In this document: one piece after another, positions 9,641-49,485 of the stretch
Layout: every line of letters begins with the position of its first letter
Numbering within the stretch: the stretch's first letter is position 1
Assembly: GCA_022825945.1 (NCBI GenBank)
Contig: JAJDVS010000009.1
Location: 1 to 60,959, forward strand
Direction of reading: 5' to 3'
From: Pseudomonadales bacterium
GTDB lineage: Bacteria > Pseudomonadota > Gammaproteobacteria > Pseudomonadales > Pseudohongiellaceae
Length of the DNA: 60,959 nt
Notes under the pieces: generated by a model
The model's input: the letters and a program-made list of their open reading frames with translations, nothing else
What the model was told of the DNA's origin: nothing
Database searches by the model: none
Made by a program: the position numbers and the translations under genes

Positions 9641-9826
9641 GGAGCCTGCGGCGCAGGCTCCTAGGAGTCTGCGCCGTAGGAATTCGCGAAAGCGAAAATT
9701 CGCTGTCGCCGCGCCCCTGGGCGGTCGATTGAGGCGAATATTGGTGGATATTCAACGAAATCGAGCGGCCAGGGGCGCGGATGAGAGCGGATTTGCAGCC
9801 GTGAATTCCTACGGCGCAGGCTCCTA
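9641..9826. mobile_element. MITE-like element B1 (161 bp) plus mini-B
   Basis: 9664-9824 is a full B element of exactly 161 bp. Terminal inverted repeats begin GGAGTCTGCGCCGTAGG and end CCTACGGCGCAGGCTCC. An inner inverted repeat (CGCGCCCCTGG / CCAGGGGCGCG) surrounds an AT-rich centre. TA dinucleotides flank it at 9662-9663 and 9825-9826. To its left, 9641-9661 is a 21-bp mini-B made only of the two ends joined. The right-flank TA and the terminal C form, on the minus strand, the TAG stop of rseA. Confidence 0.82.
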
Positions 9827-10387
9827 GTCCTGCAAATCGTTCACCAGATGGAACAGGGGGGAGTCTTCGATGTGTTCCATTCTGGGAGGTTCGGCTGGAT
9901 CGAATCTCATGCTGCCGATGTATTCGAGGAGGCGCTGCCGGGCTTCCGGGTCTACCGGGGTATTGGCTACTTCGAGCACCTGGGAGACCGGCGCGGAAGG
10001 CTGGGCAGTGGGTGCAGTGGTTCCGCTGGCGACCTGGGGGGCTGCCGGGCTGGTGTCGAGGCCGGCCTGGAGGCCGATGAAAACCGCGGCCGCCACGGTA
10101 GCGGCGATGGCGAGCTTGCCGGCGAATTGCCGCCCGGCGGAAATGTGGCGAGGCTGCCGGCCCGGGACAGGCTCGTCCCGCAGCTTGCCGGCGAGCTGCA
10201 AGTGGAAATCCTTGCTGAGCGGCGCCACGCGCTCGCGTCTCGCAACGGCGCTGGCGAGGTGGAAGCGTTTCCAGGCCGCCAGCAATTCCGGATCGTTGCC
10301 GGCGCTCTTGAGCAGACGCCGCAGCTCAAGGTCGTCGGTTTCGTTGTCCAACATGGCGGAAAGCGTTTCCCACCGTGATTCATTCAT
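9824..10387 (-). CDS. rseA: Anti-sigma-E factor RseA/MucA
   Basis: A membrane-spanning anti-sigma factor of 187 residues. The cytoplasmic N-terminal domain (ESRWETLSAMLDNETDD...LAAWKRFHLA) binds the sigma factor. A single membrane segment lies at about 87-107. The proline/alanine-rich periplasmic tail would be cut by a DegS-type protease, and one is encoded at 54.8 kb. It overlaps rpoE by four bases (ATGA), so the two are co-translated. RseB, which normally binds the periplasmic tail and shields it, is not encoded next to it. The stop codon TAG is formed by the edge of element B1. Confidence 0.9.
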   Translation of the reverse strand: MNESRWETLSAMLDNETDDLELRRLLKSAGNDPELLAAWKRFHLASAVARRERVAPLSKDFHLQLAGKLRDEPVPGRQPRHISAGRQFAGKLAIAATVAAAVFIGLQAGLDTSPAAPQVASGTTAPTAQPSAPVSQVLEVANTPVDPEARQRLLEYIGSMRFDPAEPPRMEHIEDSPLFHLVNDLQD

Positions 10388-10971
10388 GTCCTGCCTCCCG
10401 CATTTCCCGCTTCGCGGATTTTCCGGTCAATGGCTTCCCGCGCCCGGAAAATCCTTGATCTTACCGTACCTACCGGACAATCCATCACTTCCGTGATCTG
10501 TTCATAACTCATCCCGGAAAACTCGCGCAAGGTAAAGGCGGTGCGCAGGTCCTCGGGCAATTCCCCGATGGCGGCGTCGATCACCGCCTGTAAATGCTCC
10601 ATGGCGAGTTCGCTTTCCGGGTCGTCCGTTTCCCGCAAGGCCGGCGCCATATCGCCGTGTTCCGCTTCATCGATCTCGACGCTAGCCAGCATCAGGCGCC
10701 GGTTCCGGGAGGCCAGATGGTTCTTGGCCGTGTTCACCGCTATCTGGTAGAGCCAGGTATAGAACGAACTGTCTCCCCGAAACAGTGAAAGAGCCCGGTA
10801 TGCCTTGATGAATGCTTCCTGACTGATGTCCTCGATTTCCTGTGGATTCTGCACGAAGCGGCTGATCAAACCAGCTACCCGGTGCTGATAGCGCAGCACC
10901 AGAAAGTTGAATGCGTTGGCATCGCCGGCCCGTACCCTCTCCACGAGTTGCCGGTCAGTATCCCGAGACAT
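10384..10971 (-). CDS. rpoE: Sigma factor RpoE/AlgU (sigma-E)
   Basis: An extracytoplasmic-function sigma factor of 195 residues that controls envelope stress genes. Region 2 includes RYQHRVAGLISRFV and the acidic DISQEAFIKAYRAL, then GDSSFYTWLYQIAVNTAKN for -10 recognition. Region 4 has the helix-turn-helix MSYEQITEVMDCPVGTVRSR. It is co-transcribed with rseA. A promoter of the type it recognises lies upstream (11035-11061), implying autoregulation. It is divergent from nadB, an order conserved in Pseudomonas. Confidence 0.97.
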   Translation of the reverse strand: MSRDTDRQLVERVRAGDANAFNFLVLRYQHRVAGLISRFVQNPQEIEDISQEAFIKAYRALSLFRGDSSFYTWLYQIAVNTAKNHLASRNRRLMLASVEIDEAEHGDMAPALRETDDPESELAMEHLQAVIDAAIGELPEDLRTAFTLREFSGMSYEQITEVMDCPVGTVRSRIFRAREAIDRKIREAGNAGGRT

Positions 10972-11034
10972 TCGTTCCTCGCAGTCTTTCCCGGAGGCCT
11001 TCGAACCCTCCCCGAGGCACTGACGCTTTGTTTC

Positions 11035-11061
11035 TGAGACAGCGGATGCGGCAAAAAGTTC
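11035..11061 (-). promoter_or_regulatory. Sigma-E-type promoter upstream of rpoE
   Basis: Read on the minus strand, GAACTT is followed by exactly 16 bases and TCTCA. The known AlgU/RpoE consensus is GAACTT, 16-17 bases, TCTGA. The -35 matches fully and the -10 matches four of five. The spacing to the rpoE ATG is about 65 bases, reasonable for a 5' leader. The site indicates positive autoregulation of rpoE-rseA. Confidence 0.72.
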
Positions 11062-11134
11062 TCACCGGTGCGCCTGTGCTAATGTACCCGGTCATTTTAC
11101 TCCGTCCGCGCTCCGGCGCGGTGCGCTGCGAAAC

Positions 11135-12808
11135 ATGACCGACTCCCCGCCGCAAAAATTCGATATCCTCATCATCGGCAGCGGCGCCGCCGGGCTTACC
11201 CTTGCCCTGCGGGCGGCCCGCTTCGCCGGGGTGGGGGTGTTGAGCAAGGCAAGCCTTGAGCAGGGCGCCACTTTTTACGCCCAGGGCGGAATCGCCGCGG
11301 TGCTCGACGAGGGCGACAGCCTGGAATCCCATATCGAGGACACCATGGCCGTGGGCGGCGGGCTGTGCCACCGCGACATGGTGGAGCATGTGGTGAACCA
11401 CAGCGCCGCGGCGGTGCGCTGGCTGCTTGAACAGGGCGTGCCGTTCAGCACCCGAACGGAAGCCGCCGTGCAAGACGCCGGCAGGACTGCGGATCTGAGT
11501 TCACTTCATCTCGCCCAGGAAGGCGCCCACAGCCATCGCCGCATCATCCACGCCACCGACGCCACCGGCAAGGCGGTATTCGAGACCTTGCGCCGGCGCG
11601 CCCGGGAACATCCCCGCATCCACCTGATGGAAGGCTGGACCGCCATCGACCTGATTACAAGCGAGCCGGAAGCCGGCGGCCGGCGGCGTTGCCGCGGCGT
11701 GCATGTACTCGATGACGCCAGCCGCGAGGTTCACTCAATTGCGGCCAGATTCGTGGTTCTCGCCACCGGCGGCGCCAGCAAGGCCTATCTATACACCACC
11801 AATCCCGACAGCGCCAGCGGCGACGGCATCGCCATGGCCTGGCGCGCCGGCTGCCGGGTGGGCAATATGGAATTCAACCAGTTCCACCCCACCTGCCTGT
11901 TCCACCCACACGCCCGCAGTTTCCTGATTACCGAGGCCATGCGCGGCGAAGGCGCCCGGCTCGAATTGCCCGACGGCGAGCGTTTCATGCACCGTTTCGA
12001 CAGCCGCGGCGAACTCGCTCCCCGGGATATCGTTGCCCGGGCCATCGACCACGAAACCAAACGACTTGGCGAGGACTGCGTGTACCTGAACATCAGCCAC
12101 CAGAACGCCGAACTCGTGCGCGAGCGCTTTCCGAACATCTGCCGCCGCTGCCTCGAACTCGGCATCGACATTACCCGGGACCGGATTCCCGTGGTGCCCG
12201 CGGCGCATTACACCTGCGGCGGGGTGATGATCAACCAGCACGGGGAAACCGACATCGACAACCTGTATGCAGTGGGCGAGACGACTTTTTCCGGGCTCCA
12301 CGGCGCCAATCGTATTGCCAGCAATTCGCTGTCGGAGTGTTTTGTGATCGCTTTCAGCGCCGCTGATTCGATCGCCGAAAAATTCGCCGATACGCCCTTC
12401 TCCGGAGTTGGCGACGATTGGCCCGAGGGCCGGGCCGAATCCGGCGACGACATCCTGGTGTCACACAACTGGGACGAATTGCGCCGCTGCATGTGGGATT
12501 ACGTGGGCATCGTCCGCAGCGACAGCCGCCTGCGCCGGGCCGAGCGGCGGCTCGAATTGCTGCGGGAGGAGATTCACGCCCACTTCCGCAGCTACCGCAT
12601 CAGCCGCGACATCGTGGAATTGCGCAATCTGGTGCTGGTGGCCAGCCTTATAGTGCGCGGCGCCGCGACGCGCAAGGAAAGCCGCGGCCTGCATTTCAAT
12701 CTGGACCATCCGCAAACCGCAAGCGAGGCCGTGGATACGGTTCTGGTCCCCACGGACCATGCCGACCTGTCAGGCGCTCACGCACCCGGGGCTCAGTCGC
12801 TCTCATAG
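11135..12808 (+). CDS. nadB: L-aspartate oxidase
   Basis: An FAD enzyme that oxidises L-aspartate to iminoaspartate, the first step of de novo NAD synthesis. The 557-residue protein has the N-terminal FAD-binding motif IIGSGAAGLTLAL (about 12-24), the substrate-site region YAQGGIAAVLDEGDS, HATDATGKAV, the family motif NQFHPT and the C-terminal helical domain. It is divergent from rpoE. Its 3' end overlaps ygfX by 16 bp on the opposite strand, so any terminator must lie inside a coding region. nadA and nadC are not nearby. Confidence 0.97.
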   Translation: MTDSPPQKFDILIIGSGAAGLTLALRAARFAGVGVLSKASLEQGATFYAQGGIAAVLDEGDSLESHIEDTMAVGGGLCHRDMVEHVVNHSAAAVRWLLEQGVPFSTRTEAAVQDAGRTADLSSLHLAQEGAHSHRRIIHATDATGKAVFETLRRRAREHPRIHLMEGWTAIDLITSEPEAGGRRRCRGVHVLDDASREVHSIAARFVVLATGGASKAYLYTTNPDSASGDGIAMAWRAGCRVGNMEFNQFHPTCLFHPHARSFLITEAMRGEGARLELPDGERFMHRFDSRGELAPRDIVARAIDHETKRLGEDCVYLNISHQNAELVRERFPNICRRCLELGIDITRDRIPVVPAAHYTCGGVMINQHGETDIDNLYAVGETTFSGLHGANRIASNSLSECFVIAFSAADSIAEKFADTPFSGVGDDWPEGRAESGDDILVSHNWDELRRCMWDYVGIVRSDSRLRRAERRLELLREEIHAHFRSYRISRDIVELRNLVLVASLIVRGAATRKESRGLHFNLDHPQTASEAVDTVLVPTDHADLSGAHAPGAQSLS

Positions 12809-13200
12809 TGCAGCCAGCGCCGCAGCCGCCGCAATTCATCGGCGGCCAGGGAATCGGGAAACAGGGTCAGCAGCAGATGGCGGCGGCGGGCGCTCTCCAG
12901 GGGAAACTCGAGCACCAGCAGCCACTCGGAGCCATGCAGCATCCGGGGCGGCGAGGCCGCCACGGTTTCTCCGTCGATTTCCAAAGCGACCGATTTCGCC
13001 CCGAGCCGCAGGCTGACCGCAACTCCCCGGCCACGAAAACCGCGGAACTCATGCCAGAAACTGGCGAGCACAGTCAATGTCGCGCTGGCCTGGAGCCACA
13101 GCGGCGCTCCCGAATGGACCACCGCCAGCAGCGCGAGCGAATGGAATGCCAGCGCCAGCCGCCAGCGCAGCCGGGAAGGAACGGGACGAAGTAACAACAC
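12793..13200 (-). CDS. ygfX: YgfX family membrane protein
   Basis: A 135-residue protein with a hydrophobic N-terminal half (LALAFHSLALLAVVHSG and ATLTVLASF), then a soluble domain ending in RRLRRWLHYES. Length, topology and neighbourhood (nadB facing, sdhE upstream) fit YgfX/CptA, known in E. coli as an inhibitor of FtsZ/MreB assembly that is neutralised by SdhE. In relatives sdhE and ygfX touch or overlap. Here they are 250 bp apart because a nested repeat lies between them, so YgfX expression may be uncoupled from SdhE. Sequence similarity alone is weak; context carries the call. Confidence 0.75.
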   Translation of the reverse strand: MLLLRPVPSRLRWRLALAFHSLALLAVVHSGAPLWLQASATLTVLASFWHEFRGFRGRGVAVSLRLGAKSVALEIDGETVAASPPRMLHGSEWLLVLEFPLESARRRHLLLTLFPDSLAADELRRLRRWLHYESD

Positions 13201-13254
13201 CGCAAAAGCCTAGTCGGCTTTCGAGGGTTTGGCCAGGAGCCGGGGTTTTTCTCC

Positions 13255-13448
13255 CGTCACTCTGCGCGTAGCGAAGCGTAGTCGTTCGATTTCTGCATAT
13301 TCTCCAATATTCGCCTCAATCGACCGGCCAGGGGCGCGACGATAGCGAATTTTCGCTTTCGCGAATTCCTGCGGCGCAGGCTCCCAAGTCTCGACGGCCC
13401 AGCCGCCGGGCATGGCTCGGCGCCACTCGGGACTGCGCGCAGAATGAC
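13255..13448. repeat. Nested repeat: B inside A, with D spacer
   Basis: Left to right: a family A left half-site (GTCACTCTGCGCGTAGCGAAG, 13255-13285), a truncated B element (about 13286-13386, ending GAATTCCTGCGGCGCAGG), a D module with the stem CCGCCGGGCATGGCTCGGCG (about 13389-13430), then the family A right half-site GACTGCGCGCAGAATGAC (to 13448). The two halves of A are thus split by B and D. The same A-D-A layout without B occurs at 24.25-24.48 kb. This gives a relative order: D or A first, B later. Confidence 0.72.
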
Positions 13449-13452
13449 GGAC

Positions 13453-13707
13453 TTATTGAAATGCCGTCTTGTACGCCAGGATGCGGTCGATCAGTGGTTG
13501 CCAGCGGCCCGCCGGCTTGCCTCCCAGCAACCAGCCGAACAGCTCCTGATCCTCACAGGCAAGCAATTCCCGATACCGCTCCTGCTCCTCCGCCTCAAGC
13601 GAACCGTACACCTCCCGCGAAAAAGGCGTCAGCAATAAATCCAGCTCAAGCATCCCCCGCCGGCTACGCCAGTAAACCACCCCCCCATCACCCAACTCCT
13701 GCACCAT
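13453..13707 (-). CDS. sdhE: FAD assembly factor SdhE
   Basis: An 84-residue protein of the SdhE/YgfY family, which promotes covalent attachment of FAD to succinate dehydrogenase. The signature [11 protein letters not shown] (RGM at residues 17-19) is intact, followed by [21 protein letters not shown] and the C-terminal [10 protein letters not shown]. The start is chosen at 13707 from GGAGG four bases upstream; the GTG at 13704 is possible. It precedes ygfX on the same strand but with a 250-bp repeat between. Confidence 0.92.
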
Positions 13708-13850
13708 CACTCCTCCACAACCCACTCTCCGGCACTATAACCCGGCCAACAGAATTCTGAATTGCTCGACGGTCCCCGCTCCGCCCTTGCCAGGAGCCTG
13801 CGCCCAACCAATAGTATGATAATCCATCCTTGCCACTCCCGGTTTCAACC

Positions 13851-14621
13851 ATGACCTATCCGGATTTCAACAACATCTCCGTAGTGCTGGTCCACACCTC
13901 GCATCCAGGCAACATCGGCGCCAGCGTCCGGGCCATGAAAAACATGGGCCTGAGCCGCCTAAGCCTGGTTTCGCCCAAGGAGTTTCCCAGCGGCGTGGCC
14001 GTTGGCCGGGCGGCTTCCGCGGTGGACCTGCTCGACCAGGCCCAGGTCTTCGGCTCCCTCAAGGAGGCCGTGGCAGATTGCGGACTGGTGATCGGCGCCA
14101 GCGCCCGCTCCCGGCGCATCACCTGGCCCCTGCTCGGCCCGGCGGAATGCGCCCGGCTGCTGGTTCGGGAGTCAGGCCGGAACCGGGCCGCGCTGGTTTT
14201 CGGCCGCGAGGATACCGGCCTCAGCAATGAAGAGCTGCAGCTTTGCCATTACCACGTGCGGATACCCGCCAACCCCGATTATCCTTCCCTGAACCTTGCC
14301 GCCGCCGTCATGGTGCTCTGCCACGAGTTGCGTCAGGCCGCCCTCGGCCCGGACGTGTCTGGAGAGCTTGAACGGGACTGGGACCAGCCCATGGCAACCG
14401 GCGCTGAAGTGGAGCGCTTTTATGAGCATCTCGAGCGAATACTGATTGCAGTGGAGTTTCACGACCCGGACCATCCACGCCAACTCATGCAGCGGATCCG
14501 GCGACTGTTCGGGCGCATCCGCATCGACGTCATGGAAATGAACATCCTGCGGGGTATGCTCACCAATATTGAACGCAAACTGGGCGAGGAGCCGCCGCCT
14601 CGGAACAAAGCCCGAAAATAA
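13851..14621 (+). CDS. trmJ: tRNA Cm32/Um32 methyltransferase TrmJ
   Basis: A SPOUT-class methyltransferase that 2'-O-methylates position 32 in the tRNA anticodon loop. The 256-residue protein shows HTSHPGNIGASVRAMKNMG at the N-terminus and the knot motifs FGREDTGLSNEEL and PSLNLAAAVMV. A C-terminal extension contains RIDVMEMNILRGML. In E. coli trmJ lies between suhB and iscR. Here a suhB homologue follows 2.5 kb later, and the iscR place is taken by a SufR-like regulator on the opposite strand. A short B fragment (13792-13804) lies just upstream. Confidence 0.94.
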   Translation: MTYPDFNNISVVLVHTSHPGNIGASVRAMKNMGLSRLSLVSPKEFPSGVAVGRAASAVDLLDQAQVFGSLKEAVADCGLVIGASARSRRITWPLLGPAECARLLVRESGRNRAALVFGREDTGLSNEELQLCHYHVRIPANPDYPSLNLAAAVMVLCHELRQAALGPDVSGELERDWDQPMATGAEVERFYEHLERILIAVEFHDPDHPRQLMQRIRRLFGRIRIDVMEMNILRGMLTNIERKLGEEPPPRNKARK

Positions 14622-14643
14622 GCCGGGCAATGCGGGAAAGAAC

Positions 14644-15312
14644 TCAGGCGGCCCGCTCCACTTCCGCCACCCGGCGGATTCGCCAGGCGCAGCGCCGGTC
14701 ACCCTTCAACAGGTGATCGGTCTGTTCGATGATGACGCCGGGGCCAAGCAGTTCGCAAAACATGCGTTTTTCCGCTTCGCAGAAATGCGGGTAGCTATCG
14801 GCGCAGGCCTGCAGGGGACAATGGTTTTGCACCAGAAGCCAGCCATCGGGCAGCAGGCGCGCTTCCGCCATGTAGCCATCGGCGCCGAGCAGATTGACGA
14901 GACGTTCGACGCGCTGCCGGGTATCCTGTTCCGGTACTTTCCGTTGCGGTCCTGGAATTGCCTCCCGATAGCGTTCCCTGATGCGGTGAAAGCGCTCATC
15001 CACCATGCGCTCGACGCCTTCCCGGCCCCAGCAGACTTCCACCACTTCCAGCATTTCCCGGGCCAGTTCGACACCGGCGCGGGGAAACCAGTCGTTGCCC
15101 TTCCGGGTCAGCGCCCAGCGGGAGACCGGGCGGCCCCGATGCTGCTTTTCAGCGGCCTGTTGCTCGACGAGTTCCAGTTTCGCCAGATCGGCGAGATGAT
15201 GCCGCACGCCCATGGTGGTCATTTCGAGCTGCCGGGAAAGAATCCGCACCGACTGTGGGCCGCGCAGCTTGAGACTGCGCAGGATATGCCGCTGGCTGCG
15301 TGATACTTGCAT
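14644..15312 (-). CDS. SufR-like Fe-S cluster-sensing repressor
   Basis: A 222-residue regulator. The N-terminal winged helix (SRSQRHILRSLKLRGPQSVRILSRQ...MGVRHHLADL) is followed by a basic wing (QHRGRPVSRW). The C-terminal domain holds a cysteine cluster: Cys165, Cys170, Cys178 (in CEAE), Cys186 and Cys208. The C-x12-C-EAE arrangement with a final Cys about 30 residues on resembles SufR, the [4Fe-4S]-binding repressor of suf genes in cyanobacteria and actinobacteria. It sits where gammaproteobacteria often carry iscR. Two near-repeats of ACCTTT upstream could be operator sequence. Function is inferred; regulation of Fe-S genes such as nfuA or ygfZ is plausible but unproven. Confidence 0.78.
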   Translation of the reverse strand: MQVSRSQRHILRSLKLRGPQSVRILSRQLEMTTMGVRHHLADLAKLELVEQQAAEKQHRGRPVSRWALTRKGNDWFPRAGVELAREMLEVVEVCWGREGVERMVDERFHRIRERYREAIPGPQRKVPEQDTRQRVERLVNLLGADGYMAEARLLPDGWLLVQNHCPLQACADSYPHFCEAEKRMFCELLGPGVIIEQTDHLLKGDRRCAWRIRRVAEVERAA

Positions 15313-15402
15313 GAAGGAAACCCTTTGGAACTTGTTCGATGTATCGGTATGCAAGCCGAAAGGTTTACAAAAGGTTGACGAAGCTCCGGTCCGCGCAGGC
15401 TC

Positions 15403-15855
15403 CTACCGCACCATATCCACGTGTGGAATCCCCGCATCGTCATAGGGCGCCGAAACCCGGCGAAATCCCTGGGCGGCATAAAACTCCACCAGGTGCCGCT
15501 GGGCGGAAAGCTGGATTTCCGCGCCGGGCCAGTGCTGTTCGCAGCGGGCGATGGCTTCCCGCAGCAGAATGCCGCCGAGCCCGCCGCCGCGTCGTTTCCG
15601 GCTGACGATGATCCGGCTGATGGCGGCTGCGGGGAACTTCAATTCGGGCGGGTTGAGGCGGGCGTAACAGGCGAGTTTCCCCTCGGCCATACCGCACAGA
15701 TGCAGGGATTGCCGGTCATGGCCGTCCAGGTCCTGATAGACGCAGTCCTGCTCCACCACGAATACCGCCGAGCGCAGCCGCAGCAACTCGTAGAGCAGGT
15801 CTCGATGGAGTTCGGCGAAGGGCAGGCAGAGCCAGCGCAATTCCGGCAAGGGCAT
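15403..15855 (-). CDS. elaA: ElaA family GNAT acetyltransferase
   Basis: A 150-residue GNAT-fold protein matching ElaA: LLRLRSAVFVVEQDCVYQDLDGHD at the N-terminus, the acetyl-CoA loop SRKRRGGGLGGILL, and the C-terminal FYAAQGFRRVSAPYDDAGIPHVDM. The substrate is unknown in the family. The start at 15855 gives the usual ElaA length. The stop codon TAG at 15403-15405 is the edge of a truncated B repeat (GCGCAGGCTCC followed by TA). It diverges from the tRNA-Arg gene. Confidence 0.92.
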   Translation of the reverse strand: MPLPELRWLCLPFAELHRDLLYELLRLRSAVFVVEQDCVYQDLDGHDRQSLHLCGMAEGKLACYARLNPPELKFPAAAISRIIVSRKRRGGGLGGILLREAIARCEQHWPGAEIQLSAQRHLVEFYAAQGFRRVSAPYDDAGIPHVDMVR

Positions 15856-15957: not shown

Positions 15958-16034
15958 GTCCCCGTGGCACAACTGGATAGCGCGACGCCCTCCTAAGGCG
16001 TAGGTTGCAGGTTCGACCCCTGCCGGGGACGCCA
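15958..16034 (+). tRNA. tRNA-Arg, anticodon CCT
   Basis: A complete cloverleaf. The acceptor stem GTCCCCG (15958-15964) pairs with CGGGGAC (16024-16030). The anticodon stem ACGCC/GGCGT encloses loop CTCCTAA with anticodon CCT at 15992-15994. The T arm carries GGTTCGACC. The discriminator is G and CCA is encoded (16032-16034). It reads the rare Arg codon AGG. The gene stands alone, divergent from elaA and facing ygfZ. No integrase or attachment-site repeat is seen beside it. Confidence 0.96.
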
Positions 16035-16063
16035 GATTCCTTCTCCGGTTTCGGTGGACATCC

Positions 16064-22187: not shown

Positions 22188-22763
22188 ATGCGAACCACCG
22201 TTTTTTCCACTCCCGTCATCACCCCCCTGCTGCGAAGCTTTTCGCGGCTGATGCTGGCCCTGACGGGCTGGAAGATCCGCGGCGGGGAACTCGAGCATCA
22301 GCGCTGCGTATTGATCGGCGCACCCCATACCAGCAACTGGGATTTCCCGCTGATGATCATGGCGGTGCTGGCGCTGAGGCTGCGGGTATTCTGGATGGGC
22401 AAACACACCCTGTTCCCCTTCCCTTTCGCCGGCCTGATGAAATGGCTGGGAGGCATCCCCATCGACCGCAGCCGGCCCCATAACGTGGTGCGGGAGACCG
22501 TGCGGCAGTACGAACAACACGACGAGTTGATCGTCCTCGTGCCGCCGGAAGGCACCCGCAGCAAGGTGGAGCGCTGGAAGACAGGCTTCTACCACATCGC
22601 CAGCAACGCCGGCGTGCCGATTCTGCTCGGCTATGTGGACGCGGGGAAAAAGGAAGCGGGCTTTGCGGATTTCTACCAGCCCAGCGGGAACGTGGAGCAG
22701 GACCTGGCGGAAATCCGCAAATTCTATGCAGGCAAGAAAGGCCTGAAAGCGGCCAATACCTAG
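22188..22763 (+). CDS. PlsC-like 1-acylglycerol-phosphate acyltransferase
   Basis: A 191-residue glycerolipid acyltransferase fold. The catalytic HX4D motif is in APHTSNWDFP, the substrate motif is PEGTRSK, and GGIPIDRS matches the third block of the family. It is shorter than PlsC itself (about 245 residues) and resembles the small acyltransferases seen beside housekeeping genes. GGGA five bases before the ATG supports the start. It is third in the nitroreductase / Cys-rich operon. The TAG stop is followed by AAGCCTGCGG, one mismatch from the edge of repeat B. Confidence 0.85.
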   Translation: MRTTVFSTPVITPLLRSFSRLMLALTGWKIRGGELEHQRCVLIGAPHTSNWDFPLMIMAVLALRLRVFWMGKHTLFPFPFAGLMKWLGGIPIDRSRPHNVVRETVRQYEQHDELIVLVPPEGTRSKVERWKTGFYHIASNAGVPILLGYVDAGKKEAGFADFYQPSGNVEQDLAEIRKFYAGKKGLKAANT

Positions 22764-24141: not shown

Positions 24142-24614
24142 CTTTCCACCTTCTCATCCTTCCACCGCCCTTCCAGGTGGTTCTTGCTCCCGAACCTGCC
24201 GCGGGCTCATGAAAACCTTTCCATTGGCGCCGGGAAGCCCCCCCACTCCGTCATTCTGCGCGAAGCGAAGCCCTCCCCCTACGTCATTCTGCGCGAAGCG
24301 AAGCCCTCCCCCTACGTCATTCTGCGCGAAGCGAAGCGTAGTCGCAGAATCCCTTTGGGGATTCTGTGTGAGGGTGCATGCCTTCCCTGGCGCGGCTTCA
24401 GTGGTTTCGCCAAATCCCAGCCTCGACTTCCCAGCCGCCGAGCATAGCTCGGCGGCGCTCGCGACTGCGCGCGGGATGACCATAGCGAGCGCGCTCAGCG
24501 CCATAGAGAATTGCGGCTCCACAGGCAATTCGCTTGAGCGGGAACCGGCGCTTGTTTATCATTGCCGGCCTTTCGCAGGCCGGGGCCGCAGCCTCCGGCG
24601 TGTCCGTTTCTTTC
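24142..24614. other. Repeat-rich gap between TauE-like gene and folD
   Basis: This 470-bp gap between divergent genes holds repeat A6 with its D module (24249-24481). The remaining 130 bp before folD contains no recognised gene and no strong ribosome-binding site for folD. The folD promoter is probably in 24482-24610. Confidence 0.6.
24249..24481. repeat. Expanded REPIN-like repeat A6 with D module
   Basis: Three tandem copies of a 35-bp unit begin CGTCATTCTGCGCGAAGCG; the first two are followed by CCCTCCCCCTA and the third completes the hairpin with AGTCGCAGAATCC. After about 70 bp comes the D stem CCGCCGAGCATAGCTCGGCGG and the right half-site GCGACTGCGCGCGGGATGAC. The near identity of the tandem units suggests recent slippage. 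Confidence 0.8.
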
Positions 24615-29143: not shown

Positions 29144-29145
29144 TC

Positions 29146-29172
29146 AGGACCCTGCGGCGCAGGCTCCTGGTC

Positions 29173-29174
<2 letters not shown>
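29146..29174. repeat. Mini-B hairpin between rpsT and proB
   Basis: A compact inverted repeat (AGGACC / GGTCCT outside, CCTGCG / CGCAGG inside) that resembles the two ends of element B joined without the interior. It lies between converging genes and could serve as a shared RNA hairpin. On the minus strand, TA followed by its first G makes the proB stop TAG. Confidence 0.65.
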
Positions 29175-31435
<2,261 letters not shown>

Positions 31436-32239: not shown

Positions 32240-32310
32240 GCCTGCCTGCGCCGTAAGAATTCACGGCTGCAAATTCGCTTTCGCGAATTCCTGCGGCGCA
32301 GACTCCTGGG
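32240..32310. repeat. Internally deleted B element (B3)
   Basis: The left end (CTGCGCCGTAAGAATTC) and right end (GAATTCCTGCGGCGCAG) of family B are joined with most of the interior missing, leaving a simple hairpin of about 70 bp in the rplU / HicB-like divergent gap. Confidence 0.72.
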
Positions 32311-34548: not shown

Positions 34549-38391
<3,843 letters not shown>

Positions 38392-40278: not shown

Positions 40279-40281
40279 ACC

Positions 40282-41916
<1,635 letters not shown>

Positions 41917-42623: not shown

Positions 42624-44732
42624 TCAGTGATAATCCTTGCGGAATTCACGGCTCATCAGGGCCACGGAAACATACAGCAGGCCCAGAAAGAGCAGGACCC
42701 AGACACCCATCTGCTGGCGCCGGTGACGAATCGGCTCGCCGATGTAGTGGAGAAAATTCACCATGTCGGCAATCATGGCGTCGAATTCCGCAGGCTCCAT
42801 GCTGCCGGTTCCCGCCACATGACTCAGGCTGCACTCGGCGGGATCGCCGGCGCCGTGATCGTCGCAGATCACGTCTCCCTGCAATTCATACAGCACATTG
42901 GGCATGCCCACATTGGGAAAGATGCTGTTGTTCGTCCCGAATGGCCGCGCCGGATCGTTGTAGAACGAGCGCAGATAGGTGTAGAGCCAGTCCGGGCCGC
43001 GCACCCGGGAGATCAGGGTCAAATCCGGCGGCGCCACGCCGAACCATTCGTTGGCGTCGTCTTCCGCCAGCGAATTGCGGATATGGTCGCCGATCAGCGA
43101 ATCGTCGAACACCAGGTTTTCCAGCACGAGTTCGTGGGGAATATCGAGATCGTCGGCGGTGCGTTCATAGCGGGCGTAGCCGAGTGCATGGCAGGAAACG
43201 CAGTAGTTCATGTAGTAGTTGAAGCCGCGCTGCAGCGAGGGCTTGTCCAGAAAATCGGTTTCCACGTGGTCCAGGTCCAGATTGCCGGCTTCGGCGGCTT
43301 CCGCCCGTTCCGACACGAGCATCAGCGGCAGAATCACGAGCAGGGCGATGAGCACGATACTGCCGATCAGTTGCGGGATGCTGATCCAGCGCCCGGTGAT
43401 CCGGTCCGGCGGCTGGGCCGTCTTTTCCCGCCGCGTGTACCAGGGCATGAGGAAGAAGTAGCCAAAATAGACCGCGGTCATGATCTGGGCCAGCAAGGTC
43501 TTGGCGGGGCTTACCGCCTGGGTCCCAAGCACGCCGAGAATGAAGAAGCTGACCACGAAAAGCATCAGCGCCACGCGGCTGTACCAGCCCTTGTAGCGCA
43601 TCGAGCGCACTGGGCTGCGGTCGAGCCAGGGCAGGAAGAAGAGAATCGCGATGGCGCCGAACATCACCAGCAGGCCCCAGAATTTCGCGTCGATGCCGAA
43701 CAGCGGCACGGTCACCGCCCGCAGCATCGAATAGAAAGGCGTGTAGTACCAGACCGGGGGCACGTGTTCCGGCGTTCTGAGCGAATCCGCCTCCTGGAAA
43801 TTCGCCACTTCCAGGAAATAGCCGCCCATCTCCGGCGCGAAAAAGATCACCGCGAAGAACACGATGAGAAACAGCACCACGCCGCCGAGATCGTGGAACA
43901 GGGTGTAGTAGGGATGGAAGGGTACGCTGTCCAGGGGTACCCCGTCAGGCCCCTTGTGCCGCTTGATCTCGATGCCGTCGGGGTTGTTGGAGCCCACCTC
44001 GTGCAGCGCCAGGAGATGCAGCACCACCAGGGCGATCAGCACCATCGGCAGGGCCACCACGTGCAGGGCGAAGAAACGGTTCAGCGTCGCCCCGGAAATG
44101 AGATAGTCGCCGCGCACCCAGATCAGCAGATCCTCGCCGATGACGGGAATGGCGCCGATCAGCGACACGATCACGTTGGCGCCCCAGTAGGACATCTGGC
44201 CCCAGGGCAGCACATAGCCGAGAAAGCCTTCCATCACCAGAATCAGGTAGATGGCCATGCCGAAGATCCAGATGAGTTCGCGCGGCCGCTGGTAGGAGCC
44301 GTACATCAGGCCCCGGAACATGTGCACATAGACCACGAAGAAGAACGCCGAAGCCCCGGTGGAATGCACATAGCGCAGCAGCCAGCCCCATTCCACGTCG
44401 CGCATGATGTATTCGATGGACGCGAAGGCGGCGTCGGCACTCGCGGTGTAGTTCATCGTCAGCCAGATCCCGGAAAGAATCTGGATGACCAGCACCGCCA
44501 GGGACAGCACGCCGAAGAAGTACCAGAAATTGAAATTGGCCGGGGCATGGTACTTCGACATGTGCGTTTCCCAGGCCTTGACCACGGGAAGTCTTGCGTC
44601 GAGCCAGCCCACCAGGCCCATGAATCCGACCGTCAAGCGACCGGGAGGGCGTGCCTCGCCAGCACCGTCGGCGGCTGCTGATTCCGATGCTTCATCCACC
44701 GCGACCTCTCCCTGCCCGCCTGTCCCGCTCAT
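42624..44732 (-). CDS. Fused cytochrome b - cytochrome c1
   Basis: One 702-residue frame encodes both the cytochrome b and c1 subunits of the ubiquinol-cytochrome c reductase. Cytochrome b (about 1-440) has heme His pairs 123/137 and 224/239, and the Qo motif reads PVWY (326-329) rather than PEWY. Residues about 455-481 are a hydrophobic segment ending SERAEAAEA, like a signal peptide for c1. The c1 part has heme motif CVSCH (511-515), the axial Met region in PNVGMPNVL, and a C-terminal anchor. The layout is like Bradyrhizobium FbcH, which is cut after synthesis. It overlaps petA by four bases. Confidence 0.92.
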   Translation of the reverse strand: MSGTGGQGEVAVDEASESAAADGAGEARPPGRLTVGFMGLVGWLDARLPVVKAWETHMSKYHAPANFNFWYFFGVLSLAVLVIQILSGIWLTMNYTASADAAFASIEYIMRDVEWGWLLRYVHSTGASAFFFVVYVHMFRGLMYGSYQRPRELIWIFGMAIYLILVMEGFLGYVLPWGQMSYWGANVIVSLIGAIPVIGEDLLIWVRGDYLISGATLNRFFALHVVALPMVLIALVVLHLLALHEVGSNNPDGIEIKRHKGPDGVPLDSVPFHPYYTLFHDLGGVVLFLIVFFAVIFFAPEMGGYFLEVANFQEADSLRTPEHVPPVWYYTPFYSMLRAVTVPLFGIDAKFWGLLVMFGAIAILFFLPWLDRSPVRSMRYKGWYSRVALMLFVVSFFILGVLGTQAVSPAKTLLAQIMTAVYFGYFFLMPWYTRREKTAQPPDRITGRWISIPQLIGSIVLIALLVILPLMLVSERAEAAEAGNLDLDHVETDFLDKPSLQRGFNYYMNYCVSCHALGYARYERTADDLDIPHELVLENLVFDDSLIGDHIRNSLAEDDANEWFGVAPPDLTLISRVRGPDWLYTYLRSFYNDPARPFGTNNSIFPNVGMPNVLYELQGDVICDDHGAGDPAECSLSHVAGTGSMEPAEFDAMIADMVNFLHYIGEPIRHRRQQMGVWVLLFLGLLYVSVALMSREFRKDYH

Positions 44733-45313
44733 GCCGTGTTCTCCTCGTCAATGCCGATGACGAGAATATTGTCGCCCTCGTAGGAGTGGGGCGGCACTTC
44801 CATGTTGCGGGATGCCGGCGAGCCGCTGTAGACCCGGCCCGCGAGATCGAAGCGGGAGCCGTGGCAGGGGCAGAAGAAACCGCCGTTCCATTCGGCGTCG
44901 AAAGGCTGCGGGCGCAGTTCGATGTGTGGCGTGGGGGAACAGAACAGATGGGGGCAAAGGCCGACGAGCACCATGACTTCGGGAGTGCGCGAACGGAACT
45001 CGTTTTGCGCGTACTCCGGCTGCTCGGGCTCCTCCGAATCGGGGTCGGCGAGCCGGTCCGGATCGCGGTTCAGGGCTTCGATCGCCTCGGGACTGCGCCG
45101 GACGATAAAGATGGGCTTGCCGCGCCAGGCGGGAATCGGGCCGAGCATTTCGCCCGGGGCGAGATTGCCGATGTCGATGCGGACCGGCGCGCCCGCGGCC
45201 CTTGCCTCGGCGCTCGGATTCCAGGATCCGATCAAGGGCGCCGCCGCGCCGGCCACGCCCACCGCGCCCAGCGCGGATGTGGAACCTGCCAGAAAGCGTC
45301 TGCGCGCCGTCAT
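44729..45313 (-). CDS. petA: Rieske iron-sulfur subunit of bc1 complex
   Basis: A 194-residue [2Fe-2S] protein with a Tat-type N-terminus (ARRRFLAGS) and one membrane segment. Cluster ligands are present: Cys120 and His122 in CPHLFC, Cys148 and His151 in CPCHGS, with disulfide Cys125/Cys150. The first box is unusual, since bc1 Rieske proteins normally read CTHLGC. The start at 45313 is chosen because AGGAGGT lies nine bases upstream; an ATG at 45322 would abut it. The gene is translationally coupled to petBC. Confidence 0.93.
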   Translation of the reverse strand: MTARRRFLAGSTSALGAVGVAGAAAPLIGSWNPSAEARAAGAPVRIDIGNLAPGEMLGPIPAWRGKPIFIVRRSPEAIEALNRDPDRLADPDSEEPEQPEYAQNEFRSRTPEVMVLVGLCPHLFCSPTPHIELRPQPFDAEWNGGFFCPCHGSRFDLAGRVYSGSPASRNMEVPPHSYEGDNILVIGIDEENTA

Positions 45314-45770
45314 GCGGGCCATTCCATACCTCCTGTCCGGTCATTCCGCGAGTATTCGCCTATCCCGTCATTCTGAGCGTAGCAGGCTTTCCCTTCATTC
45401 TGGGCAGGGCCGACTTCCCCGCCGTTCCGCGAGTAATCGCCCCTTCCGTCATTCTGCGCGAAGTCGCAGAATCTCCATGCGCGGCCACTGCTTGAGATTC
45501 CGCGACTTCGCTTCGCTGCGCGCGGAATGACGGTTGGAGTGCTCCGCTGCGCGCGGAATGACAAATCGCTGTTATTCATGCCAAGAACTTGCATTGGATA
45601 AGAAATTCCAGGAGCCTGCGCCGTAGGAATTCACGGCTGCAAATCCGCTCCCGTCCACGCCCCTGGCCGCTCGATTTCGTTGCATATCCACCAATATTCG
45701 CCTCAATCGACCGGCCAGGGGCGCGGCGATAACGAATTTTCGCTTTCGCGAATTCCTACGGCGCAGGCTC
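45314..45770. other. Repeat-filled gap between rpsI and petA
   Basis: There is no gene in this 457-bp stretch. It holds the expanded family A array A9 and the full element B5, separated by about 50 bp that contain nothing recognised. Transcription from rplM-rpsI into petA would have to cross both. Confidence 0.65.
45340..45562. repeat. Expanded REPIN-like array A9
   Basis: Four or five degenerate left half-sites (GTCATTCCGCGAG, GTCATTCTGAGCG, TTCATTCTGGGCAG, CGTTCCGCGAG) precede one complete unit (left GTCATTCTGCGCG, right GAGATTCCGCGACT...GCGGAATGAC). A further right half-site follows (GCTGCGCGCGGAATGAC). It begins 27 bp upstream of the petA start, so petA's promoter must be inside the array or beyond it. 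Confidence 0.78.
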
Positions 45771-45773
45771 CTA
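45610..45773. mobile_element. MITE-like element B5 (161 bp)
   Basis: A full B element at 45611-45771, exactly 161 bp, inverted relative to B1 and B6. The flanks are CA on the left and TA on the right. The right-hand TA and the terminal C form the TAG stop codon of rpsI on the minus strand. Confidence 0.82.
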
Positions 45774-46163
45774 GCGCTTGGAGTACTGCGGGCGCTTGCG
45801 CGCCTTGCGCAGACCCACCTTCTTGCGCTCGACTTCCCGGGCGTCCCGGGACACGAATCCGGCCTTGCGCAAGGTGGGCTTGAGTTCGCTGTCGTAGTCG
45901 ATCAGCGCCCGGGTAATGCCATGCCGGATCGCCCCGGCCTGGCCGAAACCGCCGCCGCCGCGCACGGTGACCCGGATGTCGAAACGCTCCGCCATATCCA
46001 CCACTTCCAGCGGTTGGCGCACGATCATGCGCGCCACTTCGCGACCGAAATAGGTGTCGATGGGGCGCTGGTTGATCACGATATTGCCACTGCCGCGGCT
46101 CAGATACACTCTCGCGGTGGAAGTCTTGCGACGGCCGGTGCCGTAATGCAGGCTGGTTTCCAT
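45771..46163 (-). CDS. rpsI: 30S ribosomal protein S9
   Basis: 130 residues, with [20 protein letters not shown] at the N-terminus and the C-terminal [17 protein letters not shown] whose last residues contact P-site tRNA. It is downstream of rplM by 36 bp. The stop codon TAG is formed by the edge of element B5. Confidence 0.98.
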
Positions 46164-46199
46164 TTTGATGTTTCTTTCCGGGATTCGTTGCTGGGAGGA

Positions 46200-46631
46200 T
46201 TACAGTTTCAGGGTTCGCGGTTGCTGCGCCGAATGGGGATGCTCGCCGCCGGCGTAGACTTTCAGCTTCTTCAGCATGACCCGGCTCAGCCGGTTGCGCG
46301 GCATCATGCCCCGCACCGCGAGGCGAACCACCCGCTCGGGGGATTTTTCGAGCAACTGCTCGAAAGAGACCGACTTCAGCCCGCCGGGATAGCCGGAATG
46401 CGAGTGATACAGCTTGTCGCTGGCCTTCCTGCCGGTGACCCGCACCTTGTCGGCATTGATCACCACGACGAAGTCGCCGGTGTCCACATGAGGCGTGAAT
46501 TCCGCCTTGTGCTTGCCACGCAGACGAGCGGCAATGGCGCTCGCCATCCGCCCCAGGGTCTGGCCCTCGGCATCCACCAGCAGCCAGTTGCGGGCCACCT
46601 CGCCCTGCCGCGCACTATAGGTCTCCATCAC
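46200..46631 (-). CDS. rplM: 50S ribosomal protein L13
   Basis: 143 residues with [50 protein letters not shown] and MLPRNRL-type motif [21 protein letters not shown]. ATGs at 46631 and 46628 are equally possible starts. It is first of the rplM-rpsI pair. Upstream, 270 bp to the divergent serine hydrolase gene contain a partial family A repeat and the E-like motif CGCCATGGATGGCATG. Confidence 0.98.
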
Positions 46632-46773
46632 TCGATTCTTAAGCGGTTTTCGAAGGAGCGCGGATATTACCCGAGCCGCCCATGGGATTCAAGCGCTGTC
46701 TGCGCCGTCGAGACTTGGGCCAATCGAAGACTCAATGGTAACGCCATGGATGGCATGAACTCACAAAATTCCC

Positions 46774-46828
46774 GATGAGATCCTGCGACTTCGCGCAGGA
46801 TGACAGATAGGGAAGTGCGCAGGATGAC
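46774..46828. repeat. REPIN-like right half-sites A10
   Basis: Two tandem right half-sites (GAGATCCTGCGACTTCGCGC then AGGATGAC; and GTGCGCAGGATGAC) without a left hairpin, in the rplM / serine hydrolase divergent region. Confidence 0.7.
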
Positions 46829-46899
46829 GTGCAAGCCGCGGAGCGGTTTCAACCCCGTCGCGCCTTGTGGCACACTGGCGGTTTTGGCGGGAGATTGCG

Positions 46900-48084
46900 A
46901 TGTTCAGGGTTTGTGTGTTGTTGCTGGCTTTTGGGGTTTGCGGCCTGGCGCGGGGGGCCGGACCGGGAGTTGACGAGGTGCTTGGCCGGCTTGCCGAAAC
47001 CGGGGAGCAGGAAGGGCTGCTGTTCTGGTCCCAGGAGGACCGGCGGGTGGGGTTTGCCCACATTGCCGAGTTGTTTCCGACCCGGCGCATCGGGAAAAGC
47101 GACTCGCCCTCGCCCTTGCGCGAGGCGCCCGTTGAACTCGGCGATGTGCGTTATGAAGTCGATGGTCAGTCCTACTCGCTCGCCGATTATCTGGCCGACC
47201 CCGGCCATGTGGGAATGATCGTCGTTCGCGGCGACGATGTGCTGTTCGAGGATTATTCGGCGGGTAGCGATGCGGGCAGCGTCTGGATTTCCTTTTCGGT
47301 GACCAAGTCCGTCACCTCGATGCTGATCGGCGCGGCGATTGCCGACGGCTTTATCGGGAGCGTCGATGAGAAAGTCGTCGATTACCTGCCGCGACTGCGG
47401 GGAACAAGCTACGGGCAGGCGAGCATCCGCGATGTGCTGAACATGGCCTCGGGCGTGCGCTGGAACGAGGACTATGCCGACCCCGCCTCGGATGTGGCCC
47501 GGGCCGGCGGCGCCAACGGGCTGCCACTCGCCGGTTATCTGGCGACGCTGCCGAGGGCGGACGCGCCCGGCGAGACTTTCAACTACAACACCGGCGAAAC
47601 CAATCTCGCCGGGGAGATTCTGCGAGCCGCGATCGGCAACAATGCCTCCACCTACCTCAGCCGCAGGGTCTGGCAACCATTCGGCATGGAGCACGACGCC
47701 TGGTGGTCGCTGGGTTCTCCCGCTGGCGGCGAGCTCGGAGGCTGCTGCATCCAGGCTTCCCTGCGGGATTACGCCCGCATCGGGCAATTCGCGCTTCGCG
47801 GCGGGCTTCTGCCGAACGGCGAGCGCGTGCTGCCGGATGGCTGGATGCAGGAGTCCACCGAACCCTCGGACGCTTTCGAAGGCTATGGCTACCTGTGGTG
47901 GCTGTTCGAGGGCCGGGGCTATGCCGCCCGCGGGATTTTCGGGCAATTGATCCGCATTTACCCGGACGATGACCTGGTCATCGCCTTCCACGGCAATGCC
48001 GAGGCCGCCGTGGGGACGACATTTCACGCCCACCAGTACGCGGCGGTGGAAGCGATCCGCGATTATCTGGCGGTGGAGCCTTAG
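46900..48084 (+). CDS. Secreted serine hydrolase, beta-lactamase fold
   Basis: A 394-residue protein of the class C beta-lactamase / esterase / 6-aminohexanoate-dimer hydrolase family. The signal peptide is followed by the nucleophile motif SVTK (in SFSVTKSVTSML), the YNT motif (in NYNTGETN) and a C-terminal HGN in place of KTG. The substrate is unknown. The start has GGGAG eight bases upstream. It interrupts the block otherwise conserved between rplM and zapE. The TAG stop at 48082-48084 uses the first G of repeat C3. Confidence 0.87.
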   Translation: MFRVCVLLLAFGVCGLARGAGPGVDEVLGRLAETGEQEGLLFWSQEDRRVGFAHIAELFPTRRIGKSDSPSPLREAPVELGDVRYEVDGQSYSLADYLADPGHVGMIVVRGDDVLFEDYSAGSDAGSVWISFSVTKSVTSMLIGAAIADGFIGSVDEKVVDYLPRLRGTSYGQASIRDVLNMASGVRWNEDYADPASDVARAGGANGLPLAGYLATLPRADAPGETFNYNTGETNLAGEILRAAIGNNASTYLSRRVWQPFGMEHDAWWSLGSPAGGELGGCCIQASLRDYARIGQFALRGGLLPNGERVLPDGWMQESTEPSDAFEGYGYLWWLFEGRGYAARGIFGQLIRIYPDDDLVIAFHGNAEAAVGTTFHAHQYAAVEAIRDYLAVEP

Positions 48085-48175
48085 GGAAGCTCTGATCAAG
48101 TCAGAGCTTCCCTGCGGTACATGGAAGATAATGAAAAACTCCACGGATGGAGTTTTTCAGAGAATACTTAGAGTA
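48083..48175. repeat. Composite hairpin repeat C3
   Basis: Module 1 is GGGAAGCTCTGA / TCAGAGCTTCCC (48084-48112). Module 2 is the conserved core beginning with ATG at 48131, with GAAAAACTCC / GGAGTTTTTC (48133-48158). The A-run, stem and T-run make a plausible bidirectional terminator for the serine hydrolase gene. The plus-strand micro-ORF reads MKNSTDGVFQRIL. Confidence 0.78.
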
Positions 48176-48359
48176 GCGGAAGCGGCTTTCCTTCATCGCC
48201 AGAAGCCCGCGTCGCGAAATTCACGAAATTCCGGATTGACTGTAACCAGTTCCGCTGTGCAGCGTTGTATGTGTTGAATGGCATCGTTGCGGGGCTCGCT
48301 CGGGCGATGCCGGGGGGAACGACGGGCCGGCCATGCCGGCACTATTTTCGGAGAGACCA

Positions 48360-49322
48360 ATGAATCAGGCTCTGGTGAGAAACTGTACCGCCGGCTTCGC
48401 CGCGCTGGCGCTGGCGGCAAGCGCGGAGGCCGCGCTTGGCCAGGACATCGAGCGCAGCTTTTCCGTGAATGCAGGCGACACGGTGCGGGTGGATGTGGAA
48501 CGGGCGCGGATCAGCGTCGAGACCTGGGATCGGAACGAAGTCGCTTTTTCGGCGGTGGAAGCCGACCGGCTCGAATTCGAGTTCGAACAGGAGGACGGCG
48601 TGGTGACGATTCGCGGGCGCGAACCCGATGGCCGCCTCTCGTGGGGCTGGCTGGGGCTGGTGGGTAACGCGAATGCTGAAATCATGCTGAATGTGCCGTA
48701 TCTGCAGGACCTGAATCTGCGTACCAGCGGCGGCGATGTGGAGTTGGACCGCCTGCAGGGGGAATTCAGGGCCCGCACTTCCGGCGGCGACATCGAAGCG
48801 GGCGAAGTCGACGGGACGGTGGACGTGGAAACCTCAGGGGGCACGATTCGGCTGGAGCAGGCAAGCGGCTCGGTAGCCGCGAAAACTTCGGGCGGTCGCA
48901 TCCGGCTTGGCAATATGGCCGGCGCGGTGGACGCCAGAACTTCGGGAGGCAGCATCCGCATCGCCGAAACCGGCGCCGGGGTTGAGGCCCGCACTTCGGG
49001 TGGCTCCATTGAAATCGACCATGCCGGCGGCGCGGTGAATGCCCGGACGTCCGGCGGTTCGGTTACGGTGGGCTTTGCCCGCCAGCCGGAAGCCGGCAGC
49101 GAGTTGCGTACTTCCGGGGGCGGCGTTACGGCGTATCTGCCCGGCGATTTCCGCGCCGATATCTCCGCGCAAACTTCCGGCGGGCGGATTCGTTCCGACT
49201 TCCCCGAAGCCAGCGCGGACGAACGGGGCCGCGAACTCGAACACGCCCTGAACGGCGGCGGCCCCGAACTCATCCTGAAAACCTCCGGCGGCTCAATCCG
49301 CATCCACCGCCGGGAAAGCTAG
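48360..49322 (+). CDS. Secreted DUF4097-like TSGG solenoid protein
   Basis: A 320-residue exported protein with signal peptide ending near ALGQ. Ten TSGG motifs occur at residues 122, 140, 158, 176, 194, 212, 230, 251, 272 and 308; the first seven are exactly 18 residues apart. Each unit follows [R/K/E]TSGG-x-I/V-x-[I/L/V]. This predicts a right-handed beta-helix of the DUF4097 adhesin-like type. No catalytic motif is seen. GGAGAG precedes the ATG. Function unknown. Its stop TAG uses the first G of element B6. Confidence 0.85.
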   Translation: MNQALVRNCTAGFAALALAASAEAALGQDIERSFSVNAGDTVRVDVERARISVETWDRNEVAFSAVEADRLEFEFEQEDGVVTIRGREPDGRLSWGWLGLVGNANAEIMLNVPYLQDLNLRTSGGDVELDRLQGEFRARTSGGDIEAGEVDGTVDVETSGGTIRLEQASGSVAAKTSGGRIRLGNMAGAVDARTSGGSIRIAETGAGVEARTSGGSIEIDHAGGAVNARTSGGSVTVGFARQPEAGSELRTSGGGVTAYLPGDFRADISAQTSGGRIRSDFPEASADERGRELEHALNGGGPELILKTSGGSIRIHRRES

Positions 49323-49485
49323 GAGCCTGCGCCGTAGGAATTCGCGAAAGCGAAAATTCGCTATCGCCGCGCCCCTGGCCAATCGATTGAGGCGAATATT
49401 GGTGAATATGCAACGAAATCGAACGGCCAGGGGCGTGGACGGGAGCGGATTTGCAGCCGTGAATTCCTACGGCGCAGGCTCCTAG
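49320..49485. mobile_element. MITE-like element B6 (161 bp)
   Basis: A full B element at 49322-49482, exactly 161 bp, with perfect TA flanks at 49320-49321 and 49483-49484. Terminal inverted repeats begin GGAGCCTGCGCCGTAGG. The inner inverted repeat is CGCGCCCCTGGCC / GGCCAGGGGCG around an AT-rich core. The left TA plus the first G is the stop codon of the TSGG protein gene. Confidence 0.85.

Follow-up and report, generated by a model that had tools for sequence, protein, structure and literature searches.

Copies of a 161-bp element at TAG stop codons: very probably an IS1182-type MITE that targets CTAG

How does a short repeat come to lie at the very ends of genes, such that its edge forms their stop codons? 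This question is raised by a 60,959-nt stretch of DNA (contig JAJDVS010000009.1 of assembly GCA_022825945.1, from a Pseudomonadales bacterium of the Pseudohongiellaceae), which in its whole length we call the window. It harbors three full copies of an element, here termed B, at 9664-9824, 45611-45771 and 49322-49482. The original prediction, made from the letters of this DNA, had described them as 161 bp each with 22-bp terminal inverted repeats and as resembling a miniature inverted-repeat transposable element (MITE), and had pointed out that the TAG at one junction of each copy is the stop codon of rseA, rpsI and a gene that it called a TSGG protein, here a DUF4097 gene. All of this holds, with a single mismatch in the left terminal repeat of copy 1. 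Judging from sequence comparison, B is very probably a non-autonomous MITE of the IS1182 type with a 159-bp core, moved in trans by an IS1182-family enzyme and directed to CTAG. According to this proposal, an IS1182-family DDE transposase would recognize the terminal repeat GAGCCTGCGCCGTAGGAA and use CTAG as its target, leaving CTAG on both sides of the inserted copy. Where that CTAG lies at a gene end (..C-TAG), TAG would be kept at one edge and the protein would be unaltered, and the bias towards stop codons would be a by-product of CTAG choice and purifying selection.

The element is abundant. A 24-base pattern of its end has nine matches at up to 3 mismatches in the window, against zero in 100 shuffles, and the 22-base end gives 103 + 104 = 207 matches at the same tolerance in the genome from which the window comes (G000, 2.64 Mb in 113 contigs, hereafter the source genome), with 0 for the reversed control pattern. 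Our census of copies by blastn used stretches around copies, within which 190 of the 207 end matches fall, and yielded 129 B pieces (130 with extra stretches of three contigs), 62 of them full and 53 of these exactly 161 bp long. B ends are present in 6 of the 84 genomes of the genus, and the full copies analyzed below comprise these 62 (124 ends) and 91 from other carriers (182 ends), in total 153 copies with 306 ends. B is predicted to fold as one long hairpin, with -114 kcal/mol for one strand and -103.7 for the other (z -13.6 and -13.2), which might conceivably act where mRNAs end. An Rfam scan of the window returned no match for B, the single match being a tRNA at 15958-16031.

The target of B is CTAG rather than TA alone. 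It had been noted at the outset that TA flanks both sides of two window copies and one side of the third, and this is correct: in copies 1 and 3 both flanks are TA, and in copy 2 one is TA and the other CA. Across the 124 full-copy ends of the source genome, the flanking dinucleotide is TA in 59, CA in 33, TG in 19 and something else in 13 cases. The suggestion that TA is the whole target is not supported by the next base out, since C stands ahead of the dinucleotide at 284 of the 306 ends (110/124 in the source genome, 174/182 in other carriers), against a background in which C precedes 19.5% of non-coding TAs. Read as a 4-mer, the flank is CTAG at 50 of 124 ends in the source genome and at 140 of 182 in other carriers (190/306 in total), with C as the first base in 284 and G as the last in 297 of the 306, and CTAG is found on both sides of 13/62 and 55/91 full copies, respectively. 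Most of the remaining ends are CCAG or CTGG, one step away from CTAG, into which later T-to-C and A-to-G changes may have converted an original CTAG. Mean identity to the reference copy falls from 94.8% in copies with TA on both sides to 93.7% with TA on one side and 92.9% with TA on none, which agrees with what such decay predicts. Among copies with non-TA flanks, the two sides agree in 13, as compared to 5.4 expected from shuffles (p = 0.0002).

Sites that lack B in relatives can be compared directly. We used G032 (pieces 83-96% identical at the rseA region) and G018 (79-91%), and the search covered 39 sites of the source genome at which a called gene runs into B, with 37 and 39 matches listed. 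At rpsI both relatives read CGCTAGAATTTC, and the source genome has CTAG, the element, CTGG and AATTTC. Three further sites occur once in G032 and, in the source genome, on either side of B, namely CTAG at L093 (where the source genome has CCAG on one side), CAAG at L143 and CTCG at L084. A target duplication is seen at these empty sites (rpsI, L093, L143, L084), and its length may be 2 or 4 bp. For 14 of the 39 sites, B (a copy or a piece) was flagged in one or both relatives, either at the junction or close by; the empty sites thus mean that B copies have been gained or lost after the lineages split. G018 also carries two tandem pairs of B, 2 bp apart (C52:1547-1870 and C72:15004-15327), as is expected if a new copy enters a doubled CTAG.

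With respect to the enzyme, we scanned genome contigs for the exact 24-base B end, which gave at least 103 stretches at 80 or more loci. Among the loci listed are G018, G022, G032, G036 and G084 as well as Ca. Rariloculus versatilis, Ca. Azophilus lithoversatilis and three other metagenome-assembled genomes, and this latter group holds, among the loci listed, 5 full B-like copies that are 71-82% identical to the window element. At L336 (JAPOTJ010000031.1), two B-type ends 1.57 kb apart enclose an intact 440-aa transposase, that is, an insertion sequence (IS), whose enzyme belongs to IS1182 by NCBIfam NF033551 (348.4 bits, cut-off 270) and in the database match list shows 52% identity to ISKpn6 over 99%. 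The first 19 bp of B are identical to both ends of this IS (19/19). Transposase relatives occur in 6 of the 84 genomes of the genus (the source genome, G018, G022, G003, G082 and G074). The source genome has a broken relic (L405), which covers residues 1-179 at 77% identity and, in addition, 257-290. Its end GGAGCCTGCGCCGTAG is identical to B over 16/16 bp, and a single CTAG separates it from the adjoining B copy. In G018 and G022, C-terminal transposase fragments lie beside the same type of end, flanked by CTAG and CTGG, and G003 has a transposase fragment. In the whole order, 7 of 293 genomes match at E 1e-40; the best match, L433, is intact and 77% identical, with almost the same ends and with CTAG on both sides. 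In total, nine IS copies have clear paired ends between CTAGs (L336, L406, L433, L434, L435, L437, L439, L440 and L441, of which L435 and L439 share one genome); L409, L436, L438, the relic L405 and the fragments L407 and L408 have no credible paired ends and were left out of the nine. Among plasmid matches, 2 of the 25 listed were examined (3139 records).

A search for PF01609 in 5 carriers pointed to 19 places, at none of which B-like ends were paired around an open reading frame; two of them (L285 and L298) contain pieces of the IS1182 IS, next to a B-like end. The stretches of the source genome contain 10 pairs of inward-facing B ends 170-4000 bp apart, which we took for neighboring copies on account of their positions. 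As to the B-like elements outside the genus, those among the loci listed are L315, L324, L340, L351 (Ca. Rariloculus), L379 (Ca. Azophilus), L328, L336, L337, L344 and L330. They are exact at one end and more diverged in their interiors, and NCBI assigns Ca. Rariloculus and Ca. Azophilus to other orders or families.

The related ISs also bear on the question of where the element begins. They start CTAG|GAG or CTAG|CAG, and CTAG|C is found at one end or at both in L406, L435 and L439, which points to the target, rather than the element, as the source of the G in TAG. Thus, the TAG at the junctions most likely comes from the target, and the original prediction, by which the element's own G would turn TAA into TAG, probably assigned this base to the wrong partner. 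A variant of our own proposal has a duplication of 2 bp, TA within C-TA-G, the end bases G and C then being part of a 161-bp element. We regard this as unlikely, though it is the most serious of the alternatives: the outer bases of CTAG equal the element ends, so that most copies fit both versions, and some copies whose end G is replaced by A (L091, for instance) even fit the shorter one better, but the CTAG|C ends of the related ISs and a B copy with TTGG on both sides argue in favor of 4 bp. We therefore infer a 4-bp duplication around a 159-bp core.

What, then, happens to the genes? Those that run into a full copy share the frame of the junction TAG in 20/21 cases in the source genome and in 28/30 cases in other carriers, and the claim that a gene hit at its stop still encodes the same protein can be upheld. 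In the source genome, 22 copies or pieces have a stop exactly at the junction, and relatives were compared where they are without B. At these codons the relatives have TAG in 9 cases (in one of them with TAA in the other relative) and TGA in 4; a stop follows 2-12 codons later in 4 cases, one case is mid-gene (L098, at a contig end) and 4 are uninformative. Five full copies of the source genome (L084, L112, L124, L143 and L150) lie 1-5 codons ahead of the relative's stop, which is 3 codons further on at L084 and 5 at L143, that is, near the gene ends. Judging from these five, insertion may be tolerated at gene ends even outside the stop codon proper. L123 alone among the full copies is followed in G032 by a long frame (stop at +283).

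CTAG is scarce in this G+C-rich genome, and TAG stops account for much of its non-coding occurrence. In four whole contigs (356 kb), our first background, 72 CTAGs are seen versus 214 expected from trinucleotides, about a third, and the free ones comprise 12 stops, 26 intergenic and 19 coding sites. Genes were called with a simple hexamer caller trained on the stretches under study, in place of a standard program. The 62 full copies divide into 14 at stops, 6 in coding sequence (the five that precede the relative's stop by 1-5 codons, and L123 deep within its gene) and 42 others. The 14 are made up of 11 with a junction stop of their own and of L093, L164 and L168 (8118), counted here because the junction codon of a relative is TAG or TAA; with six copies classed as coding, 56 of the 62 are non-coding, including L091 (11273), which a gene enters out of frame. 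The share of stops is thus 14/56 for B versus 12/38 for free non-coding CTAGs (p = 0.49) and versus 79/1051 for non-coding TAs (p = 0.0001). Since the share of B at stops is no higher than that of free non-coding CTAGs in these contigs, no active targeting is needed, and the neutral explanation that the original prediction had set beside it is favored. Only 6/62 insertions are coding versus 19/57 free CTAGs (p = 0.003), and we suppose that insertions into coding CTAGs are mostly purged by selection.

Several findings weigh against an IS1182-type MITE that simply follows CTAG. The source genome contains no intact matching transposase, only the relic; the long frames in G082 (465 aa, 42% identical) and G074 (500 aa, 30-33%) are both without B ends, and CTAG does not flank the weak inverted pair seen in G074 (L410/L413). 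B and the IS align at their ends only, with nothing else but 9-13-base matches at E 0.2 or worse, so that an origin of the B interior by deletion from the IS finds no backing in this alignment. Many MITEs share only their ends with their IS, and we hence did not treat the interior mismatch as defining. Five of the 62 full copies of the source genome are flanked by other matching 4-mers (CAAG, CTTG, CCTG, CGAG and TTGG), none of them with TA in the middle, which makes CTAG a preference and not a rule. The relatives' TGA at 4/22 junction stops, including window copy 3, is left unexplained by the simple model; these sites need a change of the stop before or with the insertion. Finally, a second and less favorable background, the stretches picked around B copies, has 10/66 stops among free non-coding CTAGs (odds ratio 1.9, p = 0.25), so that a modest excess of B at stops over the CTAG background may exist; with the stops of B counted as 17/60, the tests give p = 0.82 and 0.085. 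This possible excess, together with the five copies that sit shortly before the relative's stop and not at it, is what could be cited for active targeting to gene ends beyond CTAG, for example to 3′-end hairpins, as IS1272 targets inverted repeats (PMC5678879). We nevertheless consider active targeting quite improbable, given that stops are no less frequent among the free non-coding CTAGs of the whole contigs than among B copies and that at rpsI two relatives have just CTAG.

The CTAG target by itself leaves the family open, since it has been reported also for ISPsy32, called a member of IS630, and for IS5. The original prediction had favored an IS630/Tc1-mariner-type origin, with insertion at TA and stops being hit since they hold TA. 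In its favor, TA is the commonest flanking dinucleotide of the full copies and is contained in CTAG, the target of IS630 is given as NTAN (PMC5678879), ISPsy32 has the CTAG target just mentioned (PMC8027508), and several bacterial MITEs have TA termini, with RUP tied to an IS630 (PMC2229807). However, the IS whose ends match B belongs to IS1182, with identity over 19/19 bp, and a plain TA target predicts the low share of stops seen among non-coding TAs, not the quarter observed. The search for an IS630-type transposase with matching repeats likewise came out negative, PF13358 (DDE_3), the one IS630 model to which it extended, being absent from 5/5 carriers searched and present as a control in 3/14 named genomes. 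An IS630 origin is therefore very hard to maintain. The same low standing applies to the idea that B was moved by an IS5-family element of the source genome, which lies between CTAG and TTAG on contig G000:C36. IS5 does prefer CTAG (15/24 listed targets, with CAAG once; PMC5493358), and this element has an open frame of 385 aa, but its ends CAGGCTGCGGAAAAACCC have only AGGCTGCG in common with a minority variant of the B end, in contrast to the 19/19 bp of the IS1182 IS (one IS5 was examined). The IS5-family element itself occupies L291 1264-2661, with its transposase frame open, and has a copy in G032 (L296).

Among other bacterial MITEs, YPAL is located just after stop codons. ERIC, RUP, Correia/NEMIS and YPAL are like B in being short, repeat- or hairpin-forming, intergenic and present in many copies, but they have TA termini or variable duplications, and no CTAG and no junction stops are given for them in the available portions of PMC2229807. 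According to Siguier et al., as quoted in PMC5678879 and PMC4923244, some IS1182 members have palindromic targets, and ISPsy36 of this family has the 4-bp palindrome GGCC (PMC8027508). B differs in sharing only the IS ends, in having no known protein product, and in its target, CTAG. IS1272, also of the IS1182 family, is reported to make no target duplication and to replace stem-loops (PMC5678879), in contrast to the empty sites of B. IS5 resembles B in its 4-bp target, mostly CTAG and also CAAG (PMC5493358), and the one IS5 of the source genome that was examined differs from B in its ends. In the literature searched, which left most subscription papers aside, we did not find the combination of a high-copy MITE with IS1182-type ends, CTAG and kept TAG stops, though this says little; the available portions of PMC8027508, PMC8370563, PMC5678879 and PMC4923244 mention neither CTAG for IS1182 nor insertion into stop codons by design.

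The window also contains truncated and decayed forms of B (Table 1). Such copies had been claimed to supply stops at elaA and proB. The GNAT gene at 15403-15855, probably the elaA in question, indeed ends GTAG|GAGCCTGCGC; the AA_kinase/PUA gene at 29173-30291 (proB-like) ends GTAG as well, but fits only loosely, with a palindromic remnant a few bases beyond. At a third gene, 22188-22763 (CTAGAAGCCTGCGG), possibly the PlsC-like one for which a weaker case had been made, the match to the B end is weak. The internally deleted 66-bp form recurs in the source genome, at 32241-32306 of the window and at G000:C61:16138-16203.

Table 1. Copies, remnants and adjoining genes of element B in the window
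Feature	Position	Strand	Remarks
Full B copy 1 with two CTAG sites	9661..9827	+	CTAG at 9661-9664 and 9824-9827; 161 bp, or a 159-bp core with CTAG taken as a 4-bp target duplication
Full B copy 2	45608..45774	-	CCAG (decayed) 45608-45611, CTAG 45771-45774; empty site CTAG in G018, G032
Full B copy 3	49319..49485	+	CTAG on both sides
Truncated B copy, 102 bp	13283..13384	-	No called stop codon there
Internally deleted B derivative, 66 bp	32241..32306	-	
B end, 28 bp, at 3′ end of metH (34549-38391)	38340..38367	+	Junction codon CGG, gene continues into fragment; G032 has TAG at that codon
B end, 28 bp, at CTAG stop of UPF0102 gene (40282-40647)	40646..40673	+	
B-end fragment at GTAG stop of GNAT gene (15403-15855)	15387..15405	-	
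Palindromic B-end remnant, a few bases past TAG of proB-like gene (29173-30291)	29145..29169	.	
B-end palindrome adjoining copy 1	9639..9663	.	Common left CTAG
rseA (RseA_N)	9824..10387	-	TAG stop 9824-9826 inside CTAG at right edge of copy 1
rpsI (Ribosomal_S9, ribosomal protein S9)	45771..46163	-	TAG stop inside CTAG at edge of copy 2
DUF4097 (toastrack) gene	48333..49322	+	TAG stop in left CTAG of copy 3; both relatives TGA

B is not the only repeat found at such places. At L133, L136, L142, L156 and L163, the source genome has B and a relative has another repeat directly after the TA (read by eye). In G018, this repeat begins with GTGTGCTGTCCC at L136, with GGNCCTGTTCACACTATGCGC at L156 and L163, and with GGTATTC at L142; in G032, the one at L133 begins with GTGTGCTGTCCC as well. 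In the stretches of the source genome, CTA precedes the GGTATTCTC repeat in 13/30 cases and the GGGAAGCTCTGAT repeat in 6/23, the latter being preceded by TTA in 4; a copy of the GGGAAGCTCTGAT repeat supplies the TTAG stop of gene 46900-48084 in the window. It is conceivable, and we put it forward tentatively, that C-preceded TAG stops are shared, self-renewing safe harbors: unrelated CTAG-seeking families (B, GGTATTCTC, GGGAAGCTCTGAT and, in relatives, others) might reuse the same stops, each insertion would double the CTAG, and the load might help to retain TAG stops.

Other repeats are found in the window as well. A second repeat family (GGGAAGCTCTGATCAAGTCAGAGCTTCCC), at 48081-48112, forms the TTAG stop of gene 46900-48084. 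A 43-bp repeat ending AGAGAATAC (GGTATTCTCTGAAAAACTCC family) lies at 9466-9508 and 48127-48169, and CTA precedes 13/30 of its matches in the stretches of the source genome. The GTCATTCTGCGCGAAGCGAAGC repeat is abundant, at 24250-24351 and 50781-51012 of the window and elsewhere, with 90 matches in these stretches, and CTA is outside its ten commonest flanks.

The case of B points to a simple rule by which an element may multiply while doing little harm: its target is a rare tetranucleotide whose non-coding sites are largely stop codons, and the target is duplicated on insertion. Such a rule predicts where the element should be located in any genome, and this can be checked by counting. For the IS1182 family, it suggests CTAG as the target of one subgroup.

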